A stretch of DNA of 37,224 nt, taken from positions 1 through 37,224 of the forward strand of contig CAJQLK010000097.1 in NCBI GenBank assembly GCA_905479165.1, in the 5' to 3' direction. A program made the translations under genes and the position numbers. This document shows positions 18,902 through 37,122 of the stretch, piece by piece. The notes under the pieces are model-generated. The model was not told where the DNA came from. It saw only the letters and a list, made by a program, of their open reading frames with translations, and ran no database searches. The DNA is from an uncultured Flavobacteriales bacterium. GTDB taxonomy: Bacteria; Bacteroidota; Bacteroidia; Flavobacteriales; BACL11. Within the stretch, counting starts at the first letter, position 1, and the number at the start of each line of letters is the position of its first letter.

Positions 18902-20259
18902 ATGAATAATTTATTGCAGGAAGATACTATTTGTGCACTAGCTACAGGAGGGGGTTTAAGTGCTATTGCTATCTTAAGATTATCAGGAAAAGAAGCTGTA
19001 AAAATTACAAATGCTGTTTTTAGCAAAGATATTTTAGCTTCAAAATCCCATACCATTCATTTTGGAACAATATCCGATAGCACTAAAATTATTGATGAAG
19101 TATTAGTTAGCATTTTTAAAGATGGAAAATCATATACAGGAGAGGAAACAGTAGAAATATCATGCCATGGCTCTACTTTTATACAGAATAAATTATTGCA
19201 ACTATTCATAACTGAAGGATGTAGAATGGCAACTGCTGGTGAGTTTACTATGCGAGCTTTCAGAAACGGAAAATTAGATTTATCACAAGCAGAATCAGTT
19301 GCTGACTTAATAGCTTCAGAAAGTGAAGCTGCCCACCAAACTGCACTAAAACAACTAAGAGGAGGATTTTCAAACAAACTACAAGAACTAAGAACAAAAC
19401 TCATTGATTTTGCAAGTTAATAGAACTTGAACTTGACTTTTCAGAAGAAGATGTTGAGTTTGCCGATAGAAAACAATTTGAAACTCTATTAGCTGCTATA
19501 AAAGAAGCATTAGAGAAATTAGTTCAATCGTTTAAATTAGGGAATGTAATTAAAAACGGAATTCCAGTTGCTATCTTAGGAGCACCAAATGTGGGAAAAT
19601 CTACCCTATTGAATACGCTACTGAATGAAGATAAAGCAATTGTATCTGATATTGCAGGAACTACCCGTGATGCTATTGAAGACGAACTAAATATTGAAGG
19701 TTTTAAATTCCGATTTATAGATACAGCAGGAATTAGGGAAACTACTGATACTGTTGAAAATTTAGGAATTAAAAAATCATTAGAAAAAGCAGGAATAGCA
19801 AATATTATTTTATTCCTCATTGATGCTGATGCTGACTTAGACTATCAATTGCTAGAGTTAGAAAAAATAAAAACTAGTGCTGGTGATAAATTATTACTAG
19901 TGATTAATAAAATAGACTTAAACCCTGATATTAAGGATAACTTTAAAGATGCTCTTTTCATTTCAGCAAAGAAGGATGAGGGCATTAAAATACTTAAAGA
20001 AAGGTTGTTAACTTTTGTAAATACGGAACAACTTTCCAATAATGAAACGATAGTAACTAACCTTAGGCATTATGAGGAATTACAACTTACATTACACGAA
20101 ATCAATTCAATTATTAATGGGTTAAATTCTGGATTAACAGGCGACTTTTTAGCCGTCAATATCCGTCAATCTCTCTTTCATTTAGGAAGCATAACTGGGG
20201 AAGTTACTACCGACACCCTACTCGGTAATATTTTTGGAAAGTTCTGTATCGGAAAGTAA
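18902..20259 (+). pseudogene. mnmE: tRNA uridine-5-carboxymethylaminomethyl GTPase MnmE, interrupted by a 1-nt frameshift (mutation or sequence error)
   Basis: N-terminal part 18902-19420 ([29 protein letters not shown]...LIDFAS*) and C-terminal part in another frame from ~19420 (LIELELDFSEEDVEFADR...VAILGAPNVGKSTLLN...KFCIGK*). Restoring one T at 19417/19418 rejoins the conserved FASLIELELDFSEEDV. Confidence 0.92.
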
Positions 20260-20303
20260 CGTTATTTGCTTTTATTATCCATTTTACTACTTATCCTCAG
20301 GTA
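20242..20303 (+). repeat. Left attachment repeat (attL): end of mnmE plus 44 bp downstream
   Basis: TTCTGTATCGGAAAGTAACGTTATTTGCTTTTATTATCCATTTTACTACTTATCCTCAGGTA; 61/62 identical to 27329-27390. Confidence 0.92.
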
Positions 20304-20355
20304 CATTAACCATTATTTACTGACAAGTTGATAAGTAGCTGCTTTTGTTTGCTAT

Positions 20356-20411
20356 TTTTTTGTTGCTGATTTTTAATTTTATTCATATTAATCAAAAACA
20401 GCAACAAAAAA
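20356..20411. repeat. Inverted repeat TTTTTTGTTGCTGATTTTT ... AAAAACAGCAACAAAAAA immediately before int (candidate integrase arm sites or int regulatory hairpin)
   Basis: Arms 20356-20374 and 20394-20411; the same motif recurs at 27246-27262. Confidence 0.7.
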
Positions 20412-21538
20412 TGACTATAACATTAAGGAAACGTAAATTAAAAAAAGGGAGAATTAAATTATATCTTGATATTTATAAAGGATATACTAAATCAGAGGAT
20501 GGAAAAATTCTCTCTATAAGAGATTATGTGGAATTAGACCTTTATTTGTATGAAAAAGCAAATAACCACACTAAGAAGCAACATAATAAACAAATGCTTC
20601 AATTAGCTAACTCAATTAAAGCTCAAAGAGAGCTCGATATTCAAAGCGGAAAATATGGCTTTAATAGTAAGGTAAAATCTAAAGCTAACTTTATTGAATA
20701 CTTTAATAAACTAACTGAAGAAAGATTTGAAAGTGAAGGTAATTATGGTAATTGGAAAAGCACATTAAAACATCTTATTGGATATACTTCAGGAAAAGTT
20801 TGTTTTAATGAAATAGATGAACAATTTTGTGAGAATTTTAAGAAATATCTAGTAAGTAAGCCACTAAAGAAAAATGGTGGACACCTATCAACATCTTCTA
20901 TTGCATCATATTTTAACAAATTTAGAGCGAGTTTAAAGCAAGCAGTAAAAGAACGCATAATATCATACAACCCAAGCACTGAGATTAAACTTCCTAAAAT
21001 AATTGAAAAAGACAGACAATACCTTACTTTAGAAGAACTTCAAAGATTGGATAAAGCAGAATGTAGATACCCTGTTTTGAAAAGGGCTTTCTTATTCTCT
21101 TGCCTTACAGGATTAAGATTTGGGGATGTTGAAAGTTTAACTTGGAGACAAATAAAAATATTTGATAATCAAGTAAAAATTCATCATCATCAAGAAAAAA
21201 CAAAATCACTTGAGTATCTTGATATAAATAATCAAGCTTTAGAATATCTAGGCAAAAGACAAAATGATGATGATTTAGTATTTATAGGACTTAGGTATTC
21301 TGATTACGTTAATGTAGCATTACTTCAATGGGTTTTAAGGGCAGGAATAACAAAACATATTACCTTTCATTGCAGTAGACATACATACGCCACTCTTCTA
21401 CTAACGTATGATGTAAAGTTATTTACTGTAAGTAAACTATTAGGGCATAAAAACATTAAAACCACACAAATCTATGGTAAGATAATTGATAAAAAGAAAA
21501 GAGAAGCAGTTAATAAACTTCCACAGATAAAAATATAA
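20411..21538 (+). CDS. Tyrosine recombinase / phage integrase with N-terminal arm-binding domain
   Basis: Re-started at ATG 20411 (MTITLRKRKLKKGRIKLYLDIYKGY); catalytic signatures TGLRFGD, HCSRHTYAT, LLGHKNIKTTQIYGKI. Confidence 0.95.
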   Translation: MTITLRKRKLKKGRIKLYLDIYKGYTKSEDGKILSIRDYVELDLYLYEKANNHTKKQHNKQMLQLANSIKAQRELDIQSGKYGFNSKVKSKANFIEYFNKLTEERFESEGNYGNWKSTLKHLIGYTSGKVCFNEIDEQFCENFKKYLVSKPLKKNGGHLSTSSIASYFNKFRASLKQAVKERIISYNPSTEIKLPKIIEKDRQYLTLEELQRLDKAECRYPVLKRAFLFSCLTGLRFGDVESLTWRQIKIFDNQVKIHHHQEKTKSLEYLDINNQALEYLGKRQNDDDLVFIGLRYSDYVNVALLQWVLRAGITKHITFHCSRHTYATLLLTYDVKLFTVSKLLGHKNIKTTQIYGKIIDKKKREAVNKLPQIKI

Positions 21539-21661: not shown

Positions 21662-21970
21662 ATGAAAGAAACTACTGAACAAATTTTAAGCAAACAAATT
21701 GAAGCGTTAAAGTTGAAAATTGAGAGTATTGAAAAACTCTTTTTAACTCAAAAGAATGTATTGAACTTCTCTGAAGTAAAATCATACACTAAGCTATCGG
21801 AAAGTTATTTGTATCAACTTACTTCAAATGGAGGAATACCCTGCTATAAGCCAAATGGGAAGCTACTATACTTTAAAAGAGAAGAGGTTGAGGAATGGAT
21901 GCTAAGTAATAGAAGAGCAACAAATATAGAGTTAGATGAACTTGCCTCAACTCATATCTCTATAGCGTAG
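21662..21970 (+). CDS. Helix-turn-helix, excisionase-family DNA-binding protein
   Basis: ORF 102 aa; LNFSEVKSYTKLSESYLYQLTSNGGIPCYKPNGKLLYFKREEVEEWM = HTH_17/excisionase pattern, next to integrase. Confidence 0.85.
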   Translation: MKETTEQILSKQIEALKLKIESIEKLFLTQKNVLNFSEVKSYTKLSESYLYQLTSNGGIPCYKPNGKLLYFKREEVEEWMLSNRRATNIELDELASTHISIA

Positions 21971-22075: not shown

Positions 22076-22471
22076 ATGTACACACAACAACAAAGACAAA
22101 CTGTAATGAATTATGCTAATTGGTTAGCAGAAACTAAGTGGGATATATTCTCAACTATAACCTATAGATATGATGTTAAAGCTAAGCAGAACTATAAAGT
22201 TATGACTGACTTAGAAAGACACTTAATGACCTTAGACAAACCTTTTAATATGTTTTGGGTTACAGAGTTCACTAACTATGACTATAGCACTCATAACCAC
22301 CTCTTAGTTAAAGGAGACATTGTAGGAGATATAAACTATCATCTAAAGTCTAAAAGCCTTATAGGAGATCACGTTAAACACTTGCCTTATGAGAAGGGTG
22401 CTAGTATGTATGTAGCTAAGTATATCTGTGATACTAAGACTAATTGGGGAATAGTGAATAATATTTCTTAA
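22076..22471 (+). CDS. Small replication initiator-like protein (HUH endonuclease-like)
   Basis: ORF 131 aa; motif 1-like WDIFSTITYRYD, motif 2-like FWVTEFTNYDYSTHNHLLVKG, motif 3-like YVAKYICD; may be C-terminally shortened. Confidence 0.55.
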   Translation: MYTQQQRQTVMNYANWLAETKWDIFSTITYRYDVKAKQNYKVMTDLERHLMTLDKPFNMFWVTEFTNYDYSTHNHLLVKGDIVGDINYHLKSKSLIGDHVKHLPYEKGASMYVAKYICDTKTNWGIVNNIS

Positions 22472-22474
22472 GTT

Positions 22475-22568
22475 TACAGACTTTAAAACAATAGATTAAC
22501 AAACAACTAAGATTATGAAAAAACTACTACTTATATTACTTTGCTTACCTATGATTGGGTTTGGGCAG
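22475..22568 (+). repeat. Leader/signal-peptide repeat copy A
   Basis: TACAGACTTTAAAACAATAGATTAACAAACAACTAAGATTATGAAAAAACTACTACTTATATTACTTTGCTTACCTATGATTGGGTTTGGGCAGA. Confidence 0.85.
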
Positions 22569-23810
22569 AGTTGGGAGCGTTTCATCTCAATAGCAGACAG
22601 TAATAGTTACAGTTGTGTTTATGGAGAACAAACGCAAGATGGAGGATATATTATTACAGGTGGGGTTTCTAATTCGCCAACTAGTTTAGGCTCCCCAAAT
22701 GACCATTTGTTTTTGTTAAAAATAAATAATCAAGGAGATACGGTTTGGAATAAAACATATCCAAATATAAATGGAATAACAAATGGATTATGTGTAAGAC
22801 AAACTTTTGATAGTGGATTTATCATATCTGCTTACGAAGAAATAATTATAGATTCTATAGGCTGTCATCTTATAATTAAAACAAATTCTTTTGGAGATAC
22901 CTTATGGACTAAATATTATGATTGCAGCAACTCTATGCAAAATGGAGGTTATATCGAACAAACTACAGATAGCGGCTTTATAGCTAAACTTAACGGATAC
23001 ATAATCAAAACAGATTCTCAAGGGGATAGTTTATGGTCTAAAAATTTTCAGGGGATATCCTTATGGGGAAGAACTATAAATCAAACGAGCGATGGAGGAT
23101 ACATTTTTATTAGTACAGCACTAAACCTATCTACTTTTACTTCTGAAACATATTTAACTAAATTAAACTCACTAGGAGATACAATTTGGATGAAACTATT
23201 TAACTATGATGCTGCAGCATCTGTAGAACAAACTTCAGACGGAGGCTATATCATATCAGGAAATAAAAATTTTATATTTGGACAACCAACCATTCCATAT
23301 TTAACTAAAACAGATTCTCTCGGAAATATTATTTGGACAAAAACATACTCATTTTACCAAGGTATTGTGAATATAAGCTCTTCTCAACAAACTTCTGATG
23401 GTGGTTATATAAGTTCAATATGGCAAATGGATACAATTTCATACGAAACAGATATTTTATTACTTAAAACAAATAGTCTTGGAGACACAATATGGACTAA
23501 TAGAATTAAAGTTGGAGATAGTTTACAAGACCTCGCTCATATTGAACAAACTATAGATGGAGGATATTTTCTAGTTGCTAGTATTGAAGGGGCTGTAACA
23601 AAAGAAATTGGGAAGGGAATAATTTACTTAATTAAAACAGATGGAAATGGAAATATCACTTCAACTTTTCTTATTCATACAACAAAAACCTCAAAAGCAA
23701 AACTTATTAAAATAGTAGACCTATTAGGAAGAGAAACAAAACAAACCAATCAACCTCTCTTTTACATCTATGATGATGGAACAGTAGAGAAAAGAATAGT
23801 TATTAAATAA
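22515..23810 (+). CDS. Secreted 7-repeat (probable beta-propeller) protein with Type IX sorting-like C-terminus
   Basis: ORF 431 aa; signal peptide MKKLLLILLCLPMIGFGQ; seven Q-T-x-D-G/S-G-Y/F units; C-terminal DLLGRETKQTNQPLFYIYDDGTVEKRIVIK. Confidence 0.82.
   Translation: MKKLLLILLCLPMIGFGQSWERFISIADSNSYSCVYGEQTQDGGYIITGGVSNSPTSLGSPNDHLFLLKINNQGDTVWNKTYPNINGITNGLCVRQTFDSGFIISAYEEIIIDSIGCHLIIKTNSFGDTLWTKYYDCSNSMQNGGYIEQTTDSGFIAKLNGYIIKTDSQGDSLWSKNFQGISLWGRTINQTSDGGYIFISTALNLSTFTSETYLTKLNSLGDTIWMKLFNYDAAASVEQTSDGGYIISGNKNFIFGQPTIPYLTKTDSLGNIIWTKTYSFYQGIVNISSSQQTSDGGYISSIWQMDTISYETDILLLKTNSLGDTIWTNRIKVGDSLQDLAHIEQTIDGGYFLVASIEGAVTKEIGKGIIYLIKTDGNGNITSTFLIHTTKTSKAKLIKIVDLLGRETKQTNQPLFYIYDDGTVEKRIVIK
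23718..23810 (+). repeat. Shared 3' sorting-domain DNA segment, copy 1
   Basis: GACCTATTAGGAAGAGAAACAAAACAAACCAATCAACC...GATGATGGAACAGTAGAGAAAAGAATAGTTATTAAATAA; same length and near-identical to 25733-25825. Confidence 0.85.
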
Positions 23811-23866
23811 ACGATTAACAATGAACTAAGATGAAAAAATTACTATTTATATTACTGTGCTTGCCT
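23811..23866 (+). repeat. Leader/signal-peptide repeat copy B
   Basis: ACGATTAACAATGAACTAAGATGAAAAAATTACTATTTATATTACTGTGCTTGCCT. Confidence 0.75.
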
Positions 23867-24592
23867 TTACTATTTAGTTCTTGTATTGATTTGGATGGAA
23901 TACAATCAAAAGCAGAAGCAAATAAAGCAAAATACTCTAAGAATTATTTAGATTTAAAGATACCTAAGATTAATTATAATAATAAAAATGAATTAGATAG
24001 CTTAATTAAGATAACTCCTATTTCGAAAGACACAATATTTCTTGGCTTTATTATAGGAATGAATAAAAATGAATATAAAAGTCAAATTAAAAAACTACGC
24101 AACGAAGGAAAAACTATTACATATTCAAATTCAAATAGTTTTACAAGTGCTTATGGAACATTTAATCTTGGAGGAGGATATACGTTTGAAACCTCTATTT
24201 CACTTCAAGAAGGTAACAAAACAATTACAGGTTATGGAAGTTATTTTTTAGAGCCTAGTTATAATAATAATGGAGAACTAGCTAAATTAAATATTTTGCC
24301 AATTGAAAAATGGGATGAGACTAGAATTGGTTATAAAAATAAGGGGTGGCTAGAAAACAATATTCTAAAAAACTCAGAACGTATTAGAAATAATTATTTT
24401 AAAGAAGTAATTGAAGAAAATAATCTTATTTCATCTTCATTAGCATTGTTGCGTGTAAAGAATAATGTTCTAATATTTGAGTCATCACCAATTATCTCTT
24501 ATGTAGACCTTAAAACATTTTATTTAGAACTATTAGTTAAAGCTATTGAAAGAGATATTAAAATTAAAGAAAGTAAAAAAGTTACATTTTAA
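23831..24592 (+). CDS. Putative lipoprotein of unknown function (island cargo)
   Basis: ORF 253 aa; MKKLLFILLCLPLLFSSCIDLDG lipobox; conserved leader. Confidence 0.75.
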   Translation: MKKLLFILLCLPLLFSSCIDLDGIQSKAEANKAKYSKNYLDLKIPKINYNNKNELDSLIKITPISKDTIFLGFIIGMNKNEYKSQIKKLRNEGKTITYSNSNSFTSAYGTFNLGGGYTFETSISLQEGNKTITGYGSYFLEPSYNNNGELAKLNILPIEKWDETRIGYKNKGWLENNILKNSERIRNNYFKEVIEENNLISSSLALLRVKNNVLIFESSPIISYVDLKTFYLELLVKAIERDIKIKESKKVTF

Positions 24593-24626
24593 AACAATAA
24601 ACAAAGATGAAAAAACTACTTTATTT
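24591..24626 (+). repeat. Leader/signal-peptide repeat copy C (short)
   Basis: AAAACAATAAACAAAGATGAAAAAACTACTTTATTT. Confidence 0.55.
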
Positions 24627-25020
24627 TATTCCATTCTTATTCTTGTCTTGTGCAGACCCTGACGTTGATACATTGACACTGCAATCAGTTTATGCAGAAA
24701 TAGAAATTATAAATTGTCAAAACAGCACTTTTAATATTTGGGGTTCAGGAGGTACTGAGACAATAAATTGTAGTGGAAGCAACTATATACATACAACAAA
24801 TTTATATCAAGCAAGTGTAATTGAAAATACTTCTTTTGGCTTTGCGCTTCAAGTTGTACTGACTTCAGTTCCAATAAACTGTATTGATATTATCACAAGA
24901 GTGTATCATAATGGTGTTTTATACGAAACAAGAAATTATTCAGTTGGTGGCTATGTTGGGGGTGCGATGTGTGCAAACATTGGTGGGTTTACTGAGGGGT
25001 ATTCTATAATAGCTAATTAA
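24607..25020 (+). CDS. Putative lipoprotein (island cargo)
   Basis: ORF 137 aa; MKKLLYFIPFLFLSCADPDVD lipobox. Confidence 0.7.
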   Translation: MKKLLYFIPFLFLSCADPDVDTLTLQSVYAEIEIINCQNSTFNIWGSGGTETINCSGSNYIHTTNLYQASVIENTSFGFALQVVLTSVPINCIDIITRVYHNGVLYETRNYSVGGYVGGAMCANIGGFTEGYSIIAN

Positions 25021-25041
25021 CTGTATAATAATCTTCAAGAG

Positions 25042-25130
25042 TACAGACTTTAAAACAATAGATTAACAATAAACTAAGATGAAAAAAATACTACTGATAT
25101 TACTTTGCTTTCCTATGATTGGGTTTGGGC
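25042..25130 (+). repeat. Leader/signal-peptide repeat copy D
   Basis: TACAGACTTTAAAACAATAGATTAACAATAAACTAAGATGAAAAAAATACTACTGATATTACTTTGCTTTCCTATGATTGGGTTTGGGC; near-identical to copy A. Confidence 0.85.
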
Positions 25131-25825
25131 AAAATGTAAACATACCTGATGCTAACTTTAAAGCATATTTAGTTGGGAATACAGCTATTAATACAAATGG
25201 AGATGCTGAAATACAACTAAGTGAAGCCACTGCCTTTAATGGGGGTATTTTTTGTATTAATATGAATATTGCTGATTTAACAGGAATAGAAGCCTTTACT
25301 GCTTTAACTGATTTGTATTGTTATTATAATCAACTCACAAGCCTTGATGTAAGTCAAAATACTAATTTAACTTTAATGTGGTGTGATTATAATCAACTCA
25401 CAAACCTTGATGTAAGTCAAAATACTGCTTTAACTAATTTGCAATGTGGTAATAATCAACTCACAAGCCTTGATGTAAGTCAAAATACTGCTTTAACAGT
25501 TTTGGTTTGTGATACGAATCAGCTCACAATCCTTGATGTAAGAAATGGAAATAATACAAATATGTATTTGAATGCCTATACAAACCCTAATCTTTTTTGT
25601 ATTAATGTAGATAATACGACTTGGTCAACAAGCAATTGGACAATGATAGACCCTCAACATTACTTCAGTAATAACTGTAGTCCAAATAGTGTAGAAGAAC
25701 ACTCTATCAACAAAGAACTTCTTAAAGTAACAGACCTATTAGGTAGAGAAACAAAACAAACAAATCAACCCATACTCTACTTATACGATGATGGAACAGT
25801 AGAGAAAAGAATAGTTATAGAATAA
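25079..25825 (+). CDS. Secreted leucine-rich-repeat protein with Type IX sorting-like C-terminus
   Basis: ORF 248 aa; MKKILLILLCFPMIGFGQ; four 21-aa units (L..L.C..NQLTSLDVSQNTA); C-terminal DLLGRETKQTNQPILYLYDDGTVEKRIVIE. Confidence 0.85.
   Translation: MKKILLILLCFPMIGFGQNVNIPDANFKAYLVGNTAINTNGDAEIQLSEATAFNGGIFCINMNIADLTGIEAFTALTDLYCYYNQLTSLDVSQNTNLTLMWCDYNQLTNLDVSQNTALTNLQCGNNQLTSLDVSQNTALTVLVCDTNQLTILDVRNGNNTNMYLNAYTNPNLFCINVDNTTWSTSNWTMIDPQHYFSNNCSPNSVEEHSINKELLKVTDLLGRETKQTNQPILYLYDDGTVEKRIVIE
25304..25555 (+). repeat. Four 63-bp tandem units encoding LRRs
   Basis: Units start at 25304, 25367, 25430, 25493; core AATCAACTCACAAGCCTTGATGTAAGTCAAAATACT repeated. Confidence 0.85.
25733..25825 (+). 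repeat. Shared 3' sorting-domain DNA segment, copy 2
   Basis: GACCTATTAGGTAGAGAAACAAAACAAACAAATCAACCC...GATGATGGAACAGTAGAGAAAAGAATAGTTATAGAATAA. Confidence 0.85.
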
Positions 25826-25826
25826 A

Positions 25827-25876
25827 TCAATAGATTAACAATGAAAAAACTACTACTCATATTACTTTGCTTGCCT
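25827..25876 (+). repeat. Leader/signal-peptide repeat copy E
   Basis: CAATAGATTAACAATGAAAAAACTACTACTCATATTACTTTGCTTGCCTG. Confidence 0.8.
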
Positions 25877-25957
25877 GTGGTAAGTTATGGTGAATATTTA
25901 AATAATTTTATTGACAATATTATAGAACAAGAAAAATTAAGTAATAAAAAAAATTAA
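25841..25957 (+). CDS. 38-aa leader-derived micro-ORF (secreted peptide or truncated cassette)
   Basis: MKKLLLILLCLPVVSYGEYLNNFIDNIIEQEKLSNKKN*. Confidence 0.4.
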   Translation: MKKLLLILLCLPVVSYGEYLNNFIDNIIEQEKLSNKKN

Positions 25958-25964
25958 TACTATT

Positions 25965-25988
25965 ATGAAAAAACTACTACTTATATGA
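25965..25988 (+). repeat. Vestigial leader copy F (MKKLLLI*)
   Basis: ATGAAAAAACTACTACTTATATGA; stop overlaps the ATG of the next gene at 25985. Confidence 0.75.
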
Positions 25989-26374
25989 TTAGAAATATTT
26001 TAGCTGTTTTAGTTGGTTTAGTAGTTGGTAATATAGCAATTATGGGGTTGCATTATTTAGGAATGGTATTCTATCCTTTGCCTGAAGGCGTAAAAATGAA
26101 TGATATGAACGCAATTGCTGAATATATTAGTATAGCACCACTTGGGTCTTTGTTATTTGTAATGTTCGCTCATATAGGGGGAACCTTTATTGCAGGTATT
26201 TCTACTACATTAGTAAGTAAAAATATCATTCCAATTTATATAATAGGTAGTTTTTTCACTTTAGCAGGTATTTACAATTTATATATGCTACCACACCCAT
26301 TATGGTTCAATATTGAGATAATATTCTATTTTCCTGCTGCTATATATAGTCATAAGCTAATCAATAAACAATAG
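25985..26374 (+). CDS. Four-helix-type small integral membrane protein (island cargo)
   Basis: ORF 129 aa; MIRNILAVLVGLVVGNIAIMGLHYLGMVFYPLPEGVKMNDM...; several hydrophobic segments; resembles a family common in marine Bacteroidota. Confidence 0.75.
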   Translation: MIRNILAVLVGLVVGNIAIMGLHYLGMVFYPLPEGVKMNDMNAIAEYISIAPLGSLLFVMFAHIGGTFIAGISTTLVSKNIIPIYIIGSFFTLAGIYNLYMLPHPLWFNIEIIFYFPAAIYSHKLINKQ

Positions 26375-26395
26375 ATTAACAATAAACTAAATATG
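26368..26395 (+). repeat. Leader repeat copy G (5'UTR part only)
   Basis: AACAATAGATTAACAATAAACTAAATAT before ATG 26393. Confidence 0.6.
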
Positions 26396-26776
26396 AGACA
26401 AGTATCAATTCTAATCTTTGCCCTATTTTTCCTTAGTTCTTGCGAAAAGGAAACTTTTGTTGACTATTATATCGACAATCAATCTTCGAGTGTTATTTCA
26501 GTTGACGGCACAAACATTATTGCCTCAAGCGACATTGACAAAACGATTAATCCGAACGAAAAAAAAGACGTTGCAGTTTGGAGTAAACGTGGAAAACAAA
26601 CAGATTTTTTTGAACCAACTTCAATGTTCGGGAATGACCTAATTATTACAAATGCTTCAGGAGATACGTTGGCAAAAGATTATAAATTATTATCCAATTG
26701 GACTTCTGATGTTGATGACCAAAGAACAGTAGCAAATCACGAATACATTTTAGTCATTACTGACGCTGACTTTTAA
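26393..26776 (+). CDS. Putative lipoprotein (island cargo)
   Basis: ORF 127 aa; MRQVSILIFALFFLSSCEKETFVDYYIDNQSSS lipobox. Confidence 0.7.
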   Translation: MRQVSILIFALFFLSSCEKETFVDYYIDNQSSSVISVDGTNIIASSDIDKTINPNEKKDVAVWSKRGKQTDFFEPTSMFGNDLIITNASGDTLAKDYKLLSNWTSDVDDQRTVANHEYILVITDADF

Positions 26777-26869
26777 AAGAAGAATTTGAAATCCTGCTGT
26801 TAAAAACTTCCCATTTATTATAAAACAAATAAATGAGCATATTTTCTATTATATACTAAACGATATAAT

Positions 26870-27154
26870 ATGCCATTTAAGAAAGGAACAAGCGGAAACC
26901 CTATAGGAAGACCTAAAGGTTCAGTAAGCACTACTTCTAAGCTCATTAGAGAGCATATAAGCCAAGCAATTGACGGAAACAAGATAATGGAGATGTTAGA
27001 TAAGATAGACAGTCCTACAGAGTATATTAACGCCATCTCAAAACTCCTTCCTTATTCAATTGGAAAGGTAAAAGCTTATGAAGAGATTGAGGAAAGAGAG
27101 CCTATTAGTATTAACATTAACTTTGTAGATACTGAAGCTGAGGAAGATGAATAG
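26870..27154 (+). CDS. DUF5681-like protein, possible small-terminase/packaging-associated
   Basis: ORF 94 aa; N-terminal MPFKKGTSGNPIGRPKGSVSTTSKLIREH, the FKKGxSGNPxGRPKG signature often seen next to phage terminase genes. Confidence 0.55.
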   Translation: MPFKKGTSGNPIGRPKGSVSTTSKLIREHISQAIDGNKIMEMLDKIDSPTEYINAISKLLPYSIGKVKAYEEIEEREPISININFVDTEAEEDE

Positions 27155-27328: not shown

Positions 27329-27390
27329 TTCTGTATCGGAAAGTAACGTTATTTGCTTTTATTATCTATTTTACTACTTATCCTCAGGTA
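27329..27390 (+). repeat. Right attachment repeat (attR)
   Basis: Direct repeat of 20242-20303; single C/T mismatch at 20280/27367; offset 7087 bp. Confidence 0.92.
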
Positions 27391-27461
27391 AATTATCTAT
27401 CATAGGTGACCAAGTTAAGCAATAGTGATAATTGAGGAATTATAAAGAAACAATTCTTAAG

Positions 27462-27575
27462 CTAGAACATTACTTTATAAAACACATATATAGCTATAGC
27501 TGAAAACGTTGCAAATACAAAAAACTTGGCATAGTCTCTAGCATTCATACTACCATCATCTTTATTAATTTCCAT
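27462..27575 (-). CDS. Possible 37-aa single-TM protein
   Basis: MEINKDDGSMNARDYAKFFVFATFSAIAIYVFYKVMF*; hydrophobic helix. Confidence 0.35.
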   Translation of the reverse strand: MEINKDDGSMNARDYAKFFVFATFSAIAIYVFYKVMF

Positions 27576-27742
27576 ACGTAAATTTAAGTACACTTATGAT
27601 ATGTAAGACTTTAGGGTATTATAGTTATTAACATTAGAGTTGTTATTTATTACAACTTTATGAATAACCATAAAGTCTAAGAAAAAGACAAGGGAGCTAA
27701 TTTTTATATTGCTAAATAAATTTATAAAGAGGTTGATTATGA

Positions 27743-27750
27743 TATCTTTG
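27743..27750 (+). promoter_or_regulatory. -7 box TATCTTTG immediately upstream of leader copy H
   Basis: TAnnTTTG match directly abutting GACTTTAAAACAATAAATTAAC. Confidence 0.5.
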
Positions 27751-27816
27751 GACTTTAAAACAATAAATTAACAATAAATTAAGATGAAAAAACTACTACT
27801 TATATTACCTGGCTTA
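27751..27816 (+). repeat. Leader/signal-peptide repeat copy H, outside attR
   Basis: GACTTTAAAACAATAAATTAACAATAAATTAAGATGAAAAAACTACTACTTATATTACCTGGCTTA. Confidence 0.8.
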
Positions 27817-27990
27817 TCTTTGGTAATTTGTGCTTCATTTCCAATATCAAGTAGTGTAGTTGTTAATTCTGAAACTTCAACTGATTCTTGGCTACCATTA
27901 ATTATCTCTTTTTGGTTATTAGTAATTATTATTCCAATTTTAATAATCAGATTTATTAGCAAAAGAATATTAAAAAAAATAAAACAATAG
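27784..27990 (+). CDS. Small secreted/membrane protein with the shared leader
   Basis: ORF 68 aa; MKKLLLILPGLSLVICASFPISS...LPLIISFWLLVIIIPILIIRFISKR. Confidence 0.6.
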   Translation: MKKLLLILPGLSLVICASFPISSSVVVNSETSTDSWLPLIISFWLLVIIIPILIIRFISKRILKKIKQ

Positions 27991-27996
27991 ATTAAC
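27981..27996 (+). repeat. Leader fragment copy I (AAAACAATAGATTAAC) without cargo
   Basis: Exact 16-nt match to the leader core, truncated before the sulfotransferase gene end. Confidence 0.55.
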
Positions 27997-28000
27997 GGTA

Positions 28001-29017
28001 CTATGACAAGATTCTTTTCAAAGAGGATTTAATTTGATTTACAAGCCTTCTTAAACTGTACTTAGGTATTCCTATTAAAGCATAAAGACAATCTAGCAAA
28101 GCTTTTCTTAGTAAGAAAATAAATTTAGATTCTTTATTCTGTTCAATATAATCTTTAAATATTATAGAATTATTCAATTCTTTTGAAAATAAGTAAAGTT
28201 GGAAATCTGAAAAATACTCATCAATATCATATATACTTTCAGTTAGTTTATCTCCAATTCTAGAGTGATGTTCTTGTTCTTCACCATCAGAAGAAACAGG
28301 GATATTTTTCTTTGAAATTTTTAAAAACTTACTGTTAACAACTGACGAATCAACTTCTAAGAATTTAAAAACCTTTGTTATAACTGCTAAAGGATCAGAT
28401 AATAAGTCCTCATACCTAATTGTAAGTAATGAATTATTATTCTTTGATTGAAACGAAACCAACTCATACTCTACCCTCCTTACATATTTAATATAAGTAA
28501 GTAATGAAAAATTACTAATCTGACAATTTTTTAATTTTTTAAACCTAGAAATAGCTGAAAAATAAGGATTTCTAATAATATTTATAACATTAATATCAGG
28601 AAACATTTTAGAAATAGCATTCAATCTTATTACATGACTTGGAGATTTTTCAGCCCAATATTTTTTACCCAGTATGTTAGAATAAGTAGATAATAAGAAA
28701 TCAAAATATTCAGCAACTGTTTCAATATTAGATAAATCTTTTTCAAGTTGAGGATCATTTAATAAATCGGGAACTTCAGATTCTGTTTTAAAAACATGAT
28801 CCAACAGTTGCAAATTATACTCTTGGTTATTCGAAAGCTGTAAATAATTATGATGAAAAAATTGTGTCTCTCCTATACAAGCAATATCTGGATGATTGTT
28901 AATAAGTAAACGCAATAAAGTTGTTCCAGAGCGAGCAGCTCCCACAACAAATATTCCTTTTCTCTCTACTATTCCTTTCTTTAAAGGAGCTAATCTTCCC
29001 ATTACACAAACATACAA
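28001..29017 (-). CDS. Sulfotransferase family protein
   Basis: ORF 338 aa; PAPS-binding P-loop FVVGAARSGTTLLRLLINNHPDIACIGE; true start may be internal MGRLAP. Confidence 0.88.
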   Translation of the reverse strand: MYVCVMGRLAPLKKGIVERKGIFVVGAARSGTTLLRLLINNHPDIACIGETQFFHHNYLQLSNNQEYNLQLLDHVFKTESEVPDLLNDPQLEKDLSNIETVAEYFDFLLSTYSNILGKKYWAEKSPSHVIRLNAISKMFPDINVINIIRNPYFSAISRFKKLKNCQISNFSLLTYIKYVRRVEYELVSFQSKNNNSLLTIRYEDLLSDPLAVITKVFKFLEVDSSVVNSKFLKISKKNIPVSSDGEEQEHHSRIGDKLTESIYDIDEYFSDFQLYLFSKELNNSIIFKDYIEQNKESKFIFLLRKALLDCLYALIGIPKYSLRRLVNQIKSSLKRILS

Positions 29018-36420: not shown

Positions 36421-37122
36421 CTAATCAATTAGAATAATCCTTACATTATTTATTTTAGAAATCTTCTCGATTTCACCTATATCATTTTTAAAGTCTAATC
36501 CATTAGTCCAGCAATGAATACTATAATTAGGAAACTTATTTGAATAGAACTTGACATTATGGTAAGAACAAGAAATAGCATCAGGTGTATAATTTTCTAA
36601 ATCATTTCTTATTTCATACACCTGAAAAATACTCTTGATTAAGTTAAAAGAAGGTAGCCAATAACTAATTTTGTAACCTGACTTCTTCAATTCATATAAC
36701 AGCTTAATATCTTTAGACTCAATAATTATTCTTTGCTTTGAAATGGTTTCTTTTGTAATTGAATCTAATCTTTTAATAACAGATGAGACATTAGAATAAT
36801 TTAGATTCTTTAGATCAACCCAAAAATACATGTCATTATTATTAATCTTTGAAAGATAAACAGAAAGAGAGTTATCCTTGAAACTACCATGATGCCGAAC
36901 ATCAAACAAGGATTTATCAGACTCAAAAAAAACATCTAACTCAACTCCATTATATTTAACAGATAAATCATTTGCGATTTGATGGTCTAATACTCTATGT
37001 GCCCAATATTTATTTGAATGATTGTAAAAAACTGGAACACTCTTCTCATATATAGAATAATTATAAAATACTAAATACAGAACAACAAATATTAAAACAC
37101 TAAATAACATCTTATTCCTCAT
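36421..37122 (-). CDS. Membrane-anchored GDPD/PLC-like phosphodiesterase family protein
   Basis: ORF 233 aa; WAHRVLDHQIA...YNGVELDVFFES...FDVRHHG resembles GDPD HR / ExD / H motifs. Confidence 0.6.
   Translation of the reverse strand: MRNKMLFSVLIFVVLYLVFYNYSIYEKSVPVFYNHSNKYWAHRVLDHQIANDLSVKYNGVELDVFFESDKSLFDVRHHGSFKDNSLSVYLSKINNNDMYFWVDLKNLNYSNVSSVIKRLDSITKETISKQRIIIESKDIKLLYELKKSGYKISYWLPSFNLIKSIFQVYEIRNDLENYTPDAISCSYHNVKFYSNKFPNYSIHCWTNGLDFKNDIGEIEKISKINNVRIILID

Follow-up and report, generated by a model that had tools for sequence, protein, structure and literature searches.

Probable remains of an older mnmE-targeting element beyond the right attachment site of an intact island in a marine Flavobacteriales genome

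The DNA immediately to the right of an intact genomic island inserted at the 3' end of mnmE is likely to contain the remains of an older mnmE-targeting element, of which a copy of the left arm is the more heavily weighted part and a terminal cassette (H) with its closing repeat the other. The window, i.e. the whole stretch of DNA analysed (37,224 nt), is contig C97 of assembly G000 (genome of 1.47 Mb in 108 contigs), and its close relatives are uncultured marine Flavobacteriales assemblies (e.g. G001, CAJQJY01; G006, CAJQHO01; G008, CALSUJ01). The features concerned are, by window position and strand:

20242-20259, +, attL core, final 18 bp of mnmE (TTCTGTATCGGAAAGTAA); the same 18 bp end mnmE in relatives
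20260-20344, +, left arm of the intact island, from core to integrase; conserved in G009, G018, G020, G063 and G014
20345-21538, +, tyrosine integrase of the intact island (PF00589, PF13102, PF17293)
21662-21970, +, HTH_17/excisionase-like protein
22076-22471, +, HUH-type Rep (REP_ORF2-G2P; PF23343, E 4e-7)
22479-26780, +, cassette array of the intact island
26870-27154, +, DUF5681 gene, a recurrent right-end marker of islands and arrays
27329-27346, +, attR core
27347-27403, +, left-arm remnant, very probably of a second, older element; 52/57 identical to 20260-20316
27462-27575, -, small membrane ORF of 37 aa, with homologs at the edges of islands in G001 and G008
27743-27750, +, -7-like box of cassette H (TATCTTTG), a chance-level motif
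27751-27783, +, cassette repeat and 5' leader of H
27784-27990, +, cassette H gene, 68 aa; 86% identical homolog in an array of G008
27981-27996, +, 3' boundary repeat of cassette H, kept against the sulfotransferase end
28001-29017, -, sulfotransferase gene (PF13469), the first DNA that the window has in common with G001 and G006 past the variable interval

The intact island and the arm sequence outside attR

The tyrosine recombinase gene (PF00589, 20345-21538) adjoins attL, 85 nt from the core, and the 18 bp of the mnmE 3' end flank the island as a direct repeat (20242 and 27329). The repeat bounding the island measures 75 bp at 93% identity, of which only the first 18 bp belong to mnmE, and the mnmE stop codon marks the end of the sequence common to relatives. 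As attR consists of the 18-bp core followed by a 57-nt arm, the anomalous DNA to the right of the core, which the sequence-only reading had recognised from 27391 onwards, already starts at 27347.

The outer arm matched the island's own left arm at 52 of 57 positions (91%), a score reached by none of 500 shuffles, and with an E value of 7e-20 genome-wide. The order mnmE core, arm and integrase was found in G000, G009, G018 (another genus, with a truncated integrase) and G020, while in G063 and G014 the arm precedes a Rep tail and the integrase is deleted. Because G009, G018, G020, G063 and G014 have these 57 nt likewise placed, the segment at attL is the element's own arm, conserved across genera with the element and not with the host. 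A single insertion would not place such an element-borne arm outside its own attR, and the outer copy is very probably the left end of an older related element. The two arm copies of the window are about 91% alike and the closest arms elsewhere 87-91%; as they are thus as divergent from each other as from the arms of other genomes, they point to a separate older element rather than to a recent duplication. The earlier proposal of a previous insertion at the same att site is therefore strongly supported by the remnant at 27347-27403. In G006, the initial 8 nt of this arm (CGTTATTT) are present to the right of the attR core.

Just past the arm, the sequence weakly resembles the Rep 3' end and the start of the array (equalled in 2 of 500 shuffles), which is suggestive only, and no integrase or HTH remnant was found at 27404-27750. 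Homologs of the 37-aa ORF in this interval adjoin the third core of a tandem in G001 and a truncated DUF5681 gene in G008.

Several side observations concern the island and its site. The DUF5681 gene is often truncated after GNKIME where it is found at the right ends of islands and arrays. The Rep protein had no phage or plasmid relative in two collections. Two cassette genes (23701-23811 and 25716-25826) have 86% identical 3' ends encoding LLGRETKQTNQ...DDGTVEKRIVI, seen in many other arrays and possibly a type IX secretion tail; this C-terminal motif of several cassette products (LLGRETKQTNQ...IYDDGTVEKRIVIE), which we take to resemble type IX secretion sorting domains, matched no family model in the scans made. 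In G013 (L043), mnmE is closely followed by the glycerophosphodiesterase-like gene that ends the window (36421-37122), so the whole 16-kb stretch between them is variable. In G042 C2 (L112), DNA similar to a type I restriction enzyme gene adjoins the same mnmE core, so other island types may use the mnmE site.

Cassette H and the sulfotransferase boundary

Copy H (27751-27816) was 88% identical to the leader at 25046 over 72 nt, and in the genome search the match was 91% over 65 nt, with an E value of 5e-20. The segment 27981-27996 is one of three exact copies of AAAACAATAGATTAAC in the window, holds the stop codon of H and ends 4 nt short of the sulfotransferase stop codon. Both segments are real cassette-repeat DNA, as had been read from the window itself. 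The -7 box ascribed to copy H is present at 27743-27750, but TAnnTTTG occurs at chance frequency in the window (62 observed, 65 expected), and the box was rejected as evidence. The H product, as read from the sequence, is a small protein with a hydrophobic segment, and unlike the cassette products with the type IX-like C-terminal motif it does not have that motif.

The H homolog in the G008 array shows 92% identity across the whole unit, leader to closing repeat; it is flanked by a repeat at either end, and the neighbouring DNA is unrelated. This match from leader to repeat within unrelated flanks shows that H is a complete cassette and that 27981-27996 is its downstream boundary; the latter had previously been taken for a leader without cargo, and instead lies as a 3' boundary repeat beside the sulfotransferase gene in three genomes (G000, G001 and G006), with a different cassette before it in each. 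G000 and G006 are 99.4% identical from 27978 onwards and not homologous immediately to the left. In G006, the right end of the island and the core are followed by one different cassette and the closing repeat. In G001, which is without the island, the mnmE core is succeeded by other cassettes, which end in the same closing repeat beside the sulfotransferase gene; this interval contains neither the type-1 arm, an integrase nor a second core. This island-less relative thus carries different DNA in place of 27391-27997, and the segment is not conserved core sequence there. In G004, a Rep tail and then cassettes come after the mnmE core, with no integrase at this locus. Decayed islands at mnmE with a deleted or truncated integrase were found in G004, G014, G063 and G018.

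A type-2 sequence follows the core in G001, G004, G042 and G058. It precedes the Rep tail in G004, is patchily distributed, and may be either native flanking DNA or an arm belonging to another lineage of elements; what is concluded on the window holds in either case. The TetR gene was rejected as an anchor for the ancestral order, as it does not adjoin mnmE in G008.

The repeat census covered the array loci of 12 genomes, with at most one mismatch in the 14-nt core, and gave 55 copies. The stop codon of the upstream ORF lies inside the repeat in 16 of these; of the other copies with an upstream ORF, most have it a short way ahead of the repeat. In its full form, as read from the sequence, the repeat has stop codons in all three frames and then the start codon of the next gene. 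The clearest array is that of G004 C41 (L086 966-4159), with eight repeats in 3.2 kb; between them lie single genes whose products are lipoproteins, small membrane proteins or LRR proteins, and no integrase is present on the contig. Cassettes were found in islands with unrelated integrases as well as in integrase-less arrays, and individual cassettes are common to arrays with unrelated neighbourhoods. The repeat folded no better than shuffled sequences on either strand, showing no hairpin, and none of 14 genomes had an integron integrase (TIGR02249) over the cut-off; an integron was rejected on these two results. The cassette repeat was absent from the viral contigs searched. In the literature searched, which takes in only a minority of subscription journals, no description of cassettes delimited by such repeats in Bacteroidota was found.

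Cassette exchange would be most simply explained by homologous recombination across repeat and leader. A more speculative and rather unlikely possibility is a non-integron exchange system of marine Flavobacteriales, in which a 27-nt stop-plus-restart repeat (AAAACAATAGATTAACAATAAACTAAG-ATG) would bound single genes moved between islands with unrelated integrases by a dedicated enzyme, e.g. the HUH Rep of the islands.

Accretion, decay and the origin of the DNA beyond attR

Tandem accretion and decay were observed directly in sister islands. In G006 C23, the 16-bp end of a tRNA-Ser gene (TCCCTTCCTCACCGCA) occurs at the gene and again 6.8 kb away (L090 3159-3174 and 9942-9957). Between the two cores lies a complete island with integrase, HTH, Rep, cassettes and DUF5681, and beyond the far core lies the right end of another island. 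In G000 C103 (L103 5673-5760), the right end of that other island is directly at tRNA-Ser, with a single core and no integrase, so that G006 C23 and G000 C103 form a clean accretion pair; the integrase and site of the G006 tandem differ from those at mnmE. G001 C6 has three CCCGTCCAGACCGC cores around two integrases (L049 48-71, 9915-9938 and 15756-15779), and no tRNA was found at this locus. At trmE in Gammaproteobacteria, different islands in tandem are 'not a rare occurrence' (PMC7449626).

The history that best explains these data would begin with the integration of a first element at the mnmE 3' end. A related element would later have entered the core on the mnmE side, giving the order mnmE, core, new island, core, old island. 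Deletion would then have removed the integrase, HTH, Rep and right attachment site of the old element, sparing the left arm (27347-27403) and most likely also the last cassette H (27751-27990) with the closing repeat (27981-27996). Repeats of the AAAACAATAGATTAAC type bound single-gene cassettes, which would be replaced one by one, so that the terminal cassette varies from one close relative to another beside an unchanged closing repeat and sulfotransferase gene. Tandem accretion with loss of the distal end, as suggested by the sequence-only reading, is largely supported through the left arm. The third att core it had proposed to look for near 27998 is absent there and elsewhere in the window, where up to three mismatches to the 18-bp core were allowed, and the loss of the old right end is for this reason only inferred. 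In terms of tandem arrays, the end of a second element adjoins the att site of the first, and with its third core absent the arrangement is at best a decayed one. H and the closing repeat are somewhat more likely to be what is left of the tail of this same old element than part of a resident array. Besides the absent right core and the lack of integrase or HTH remnants at 27404-27750, two observations count against the account as a whole: the minus-strand ORF between arm and cassette, and the G001 cassettes that adjoin the sulfotransferase gene without the type-1 arm, which show that cassettes can sit there without this element.

The latter observation is also an argument for a chromosomal origin of the cassettes on the sulfotransferase side, in which case the island would have landed next to a resident array and only the 57-nt arm would record another insertion. 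G001 has cassettes and the same closing repeat at this position with no integrase or second core, and integrase-less arrays occur in G000 (C33 and C103) and, densely, on the 6.2-kb contig C41 of G004. However, the array of G000 C103, which DUF5681 and the tRNA-Ser core bring to a close, is an island remnant in its own right, and the Rep tail between mnmE and the cassettes of G004 indicates that arrays at this site derive from islands; a resident array is an unlikely source, though the foremost competitor of the old element.

Far less probable are two readings that dispense with a second island. The 75-bp identity could represent one long core, with an attB that included the arm and native chromosome beyond it, and the repeat pair does look like a usual attL and attR and flanks the island correctly. 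Yet the other relatives in which the 3' end of mnmE or the outer flank of attR was read share sequence only up to the mnmE stop codon, the 57 nt were found only beside an integrase or a Rep remnant, G006 keeps just 8 nt of them, and the arm follows the element across genera. An artefact, in which the assembly of this metagenome-derived contig was misjoined at the repeats, is the least plausible of all: the assembly is in 108 contigs, and cassette repeats form the ends of several contigs in these genomes, but the two arm copies differ at 5 positions, and in the separate assembly G006 the att core is again followed by cassette DNA, this closing repeat and the sulfotransferase gene.

Known systems and significance

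The island resembles SGI1-type and trmE (mnmE) islands (PMC7449626, PMC8409611, PMC6531882) in its tyrosine integrase, in the use of the 18-bp mnmE/trmE 3' end and in the tandem arrangement of different islands at that site. Unlike SGI1-type islands, it is a 7-kb element with a small HUH Rep, different cargo and a Bacteroidota host, and no mobilization or conjugation genes of the SGI1 family (mpsA, traG, traN) were found among the scanned island proteins. The cassettes are similar to those of integrons and of CALIN (attC clusters lacking an integrase), being single-gene units in one orientation with a repeated boundary each, and being common to otherwise different arrays. In contrast to these systems, the boundary is short, AT-rich and hairpin-free, the 5' leader and the start codon of the following gene form part of the repeat, and no integron integrase exceeded the cut-off.

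Tandem accretion at mnmE is known in Gammaproteobacteria; the present case, with a readable series of decay, adds small islands of marine Flavobacteriales whose genomes measure about 1.5 Mb. The observations suggest that such islands accumulate at a single site and exchange individual genes delimited by a short repeat. Genomes 99% identical alongside carry different units at one and the same boundary, each exactly delimited by this repeat, which makes the exchange mechanism directly testable; if an enzyme were involved, it would constitute a new gene-capture system.
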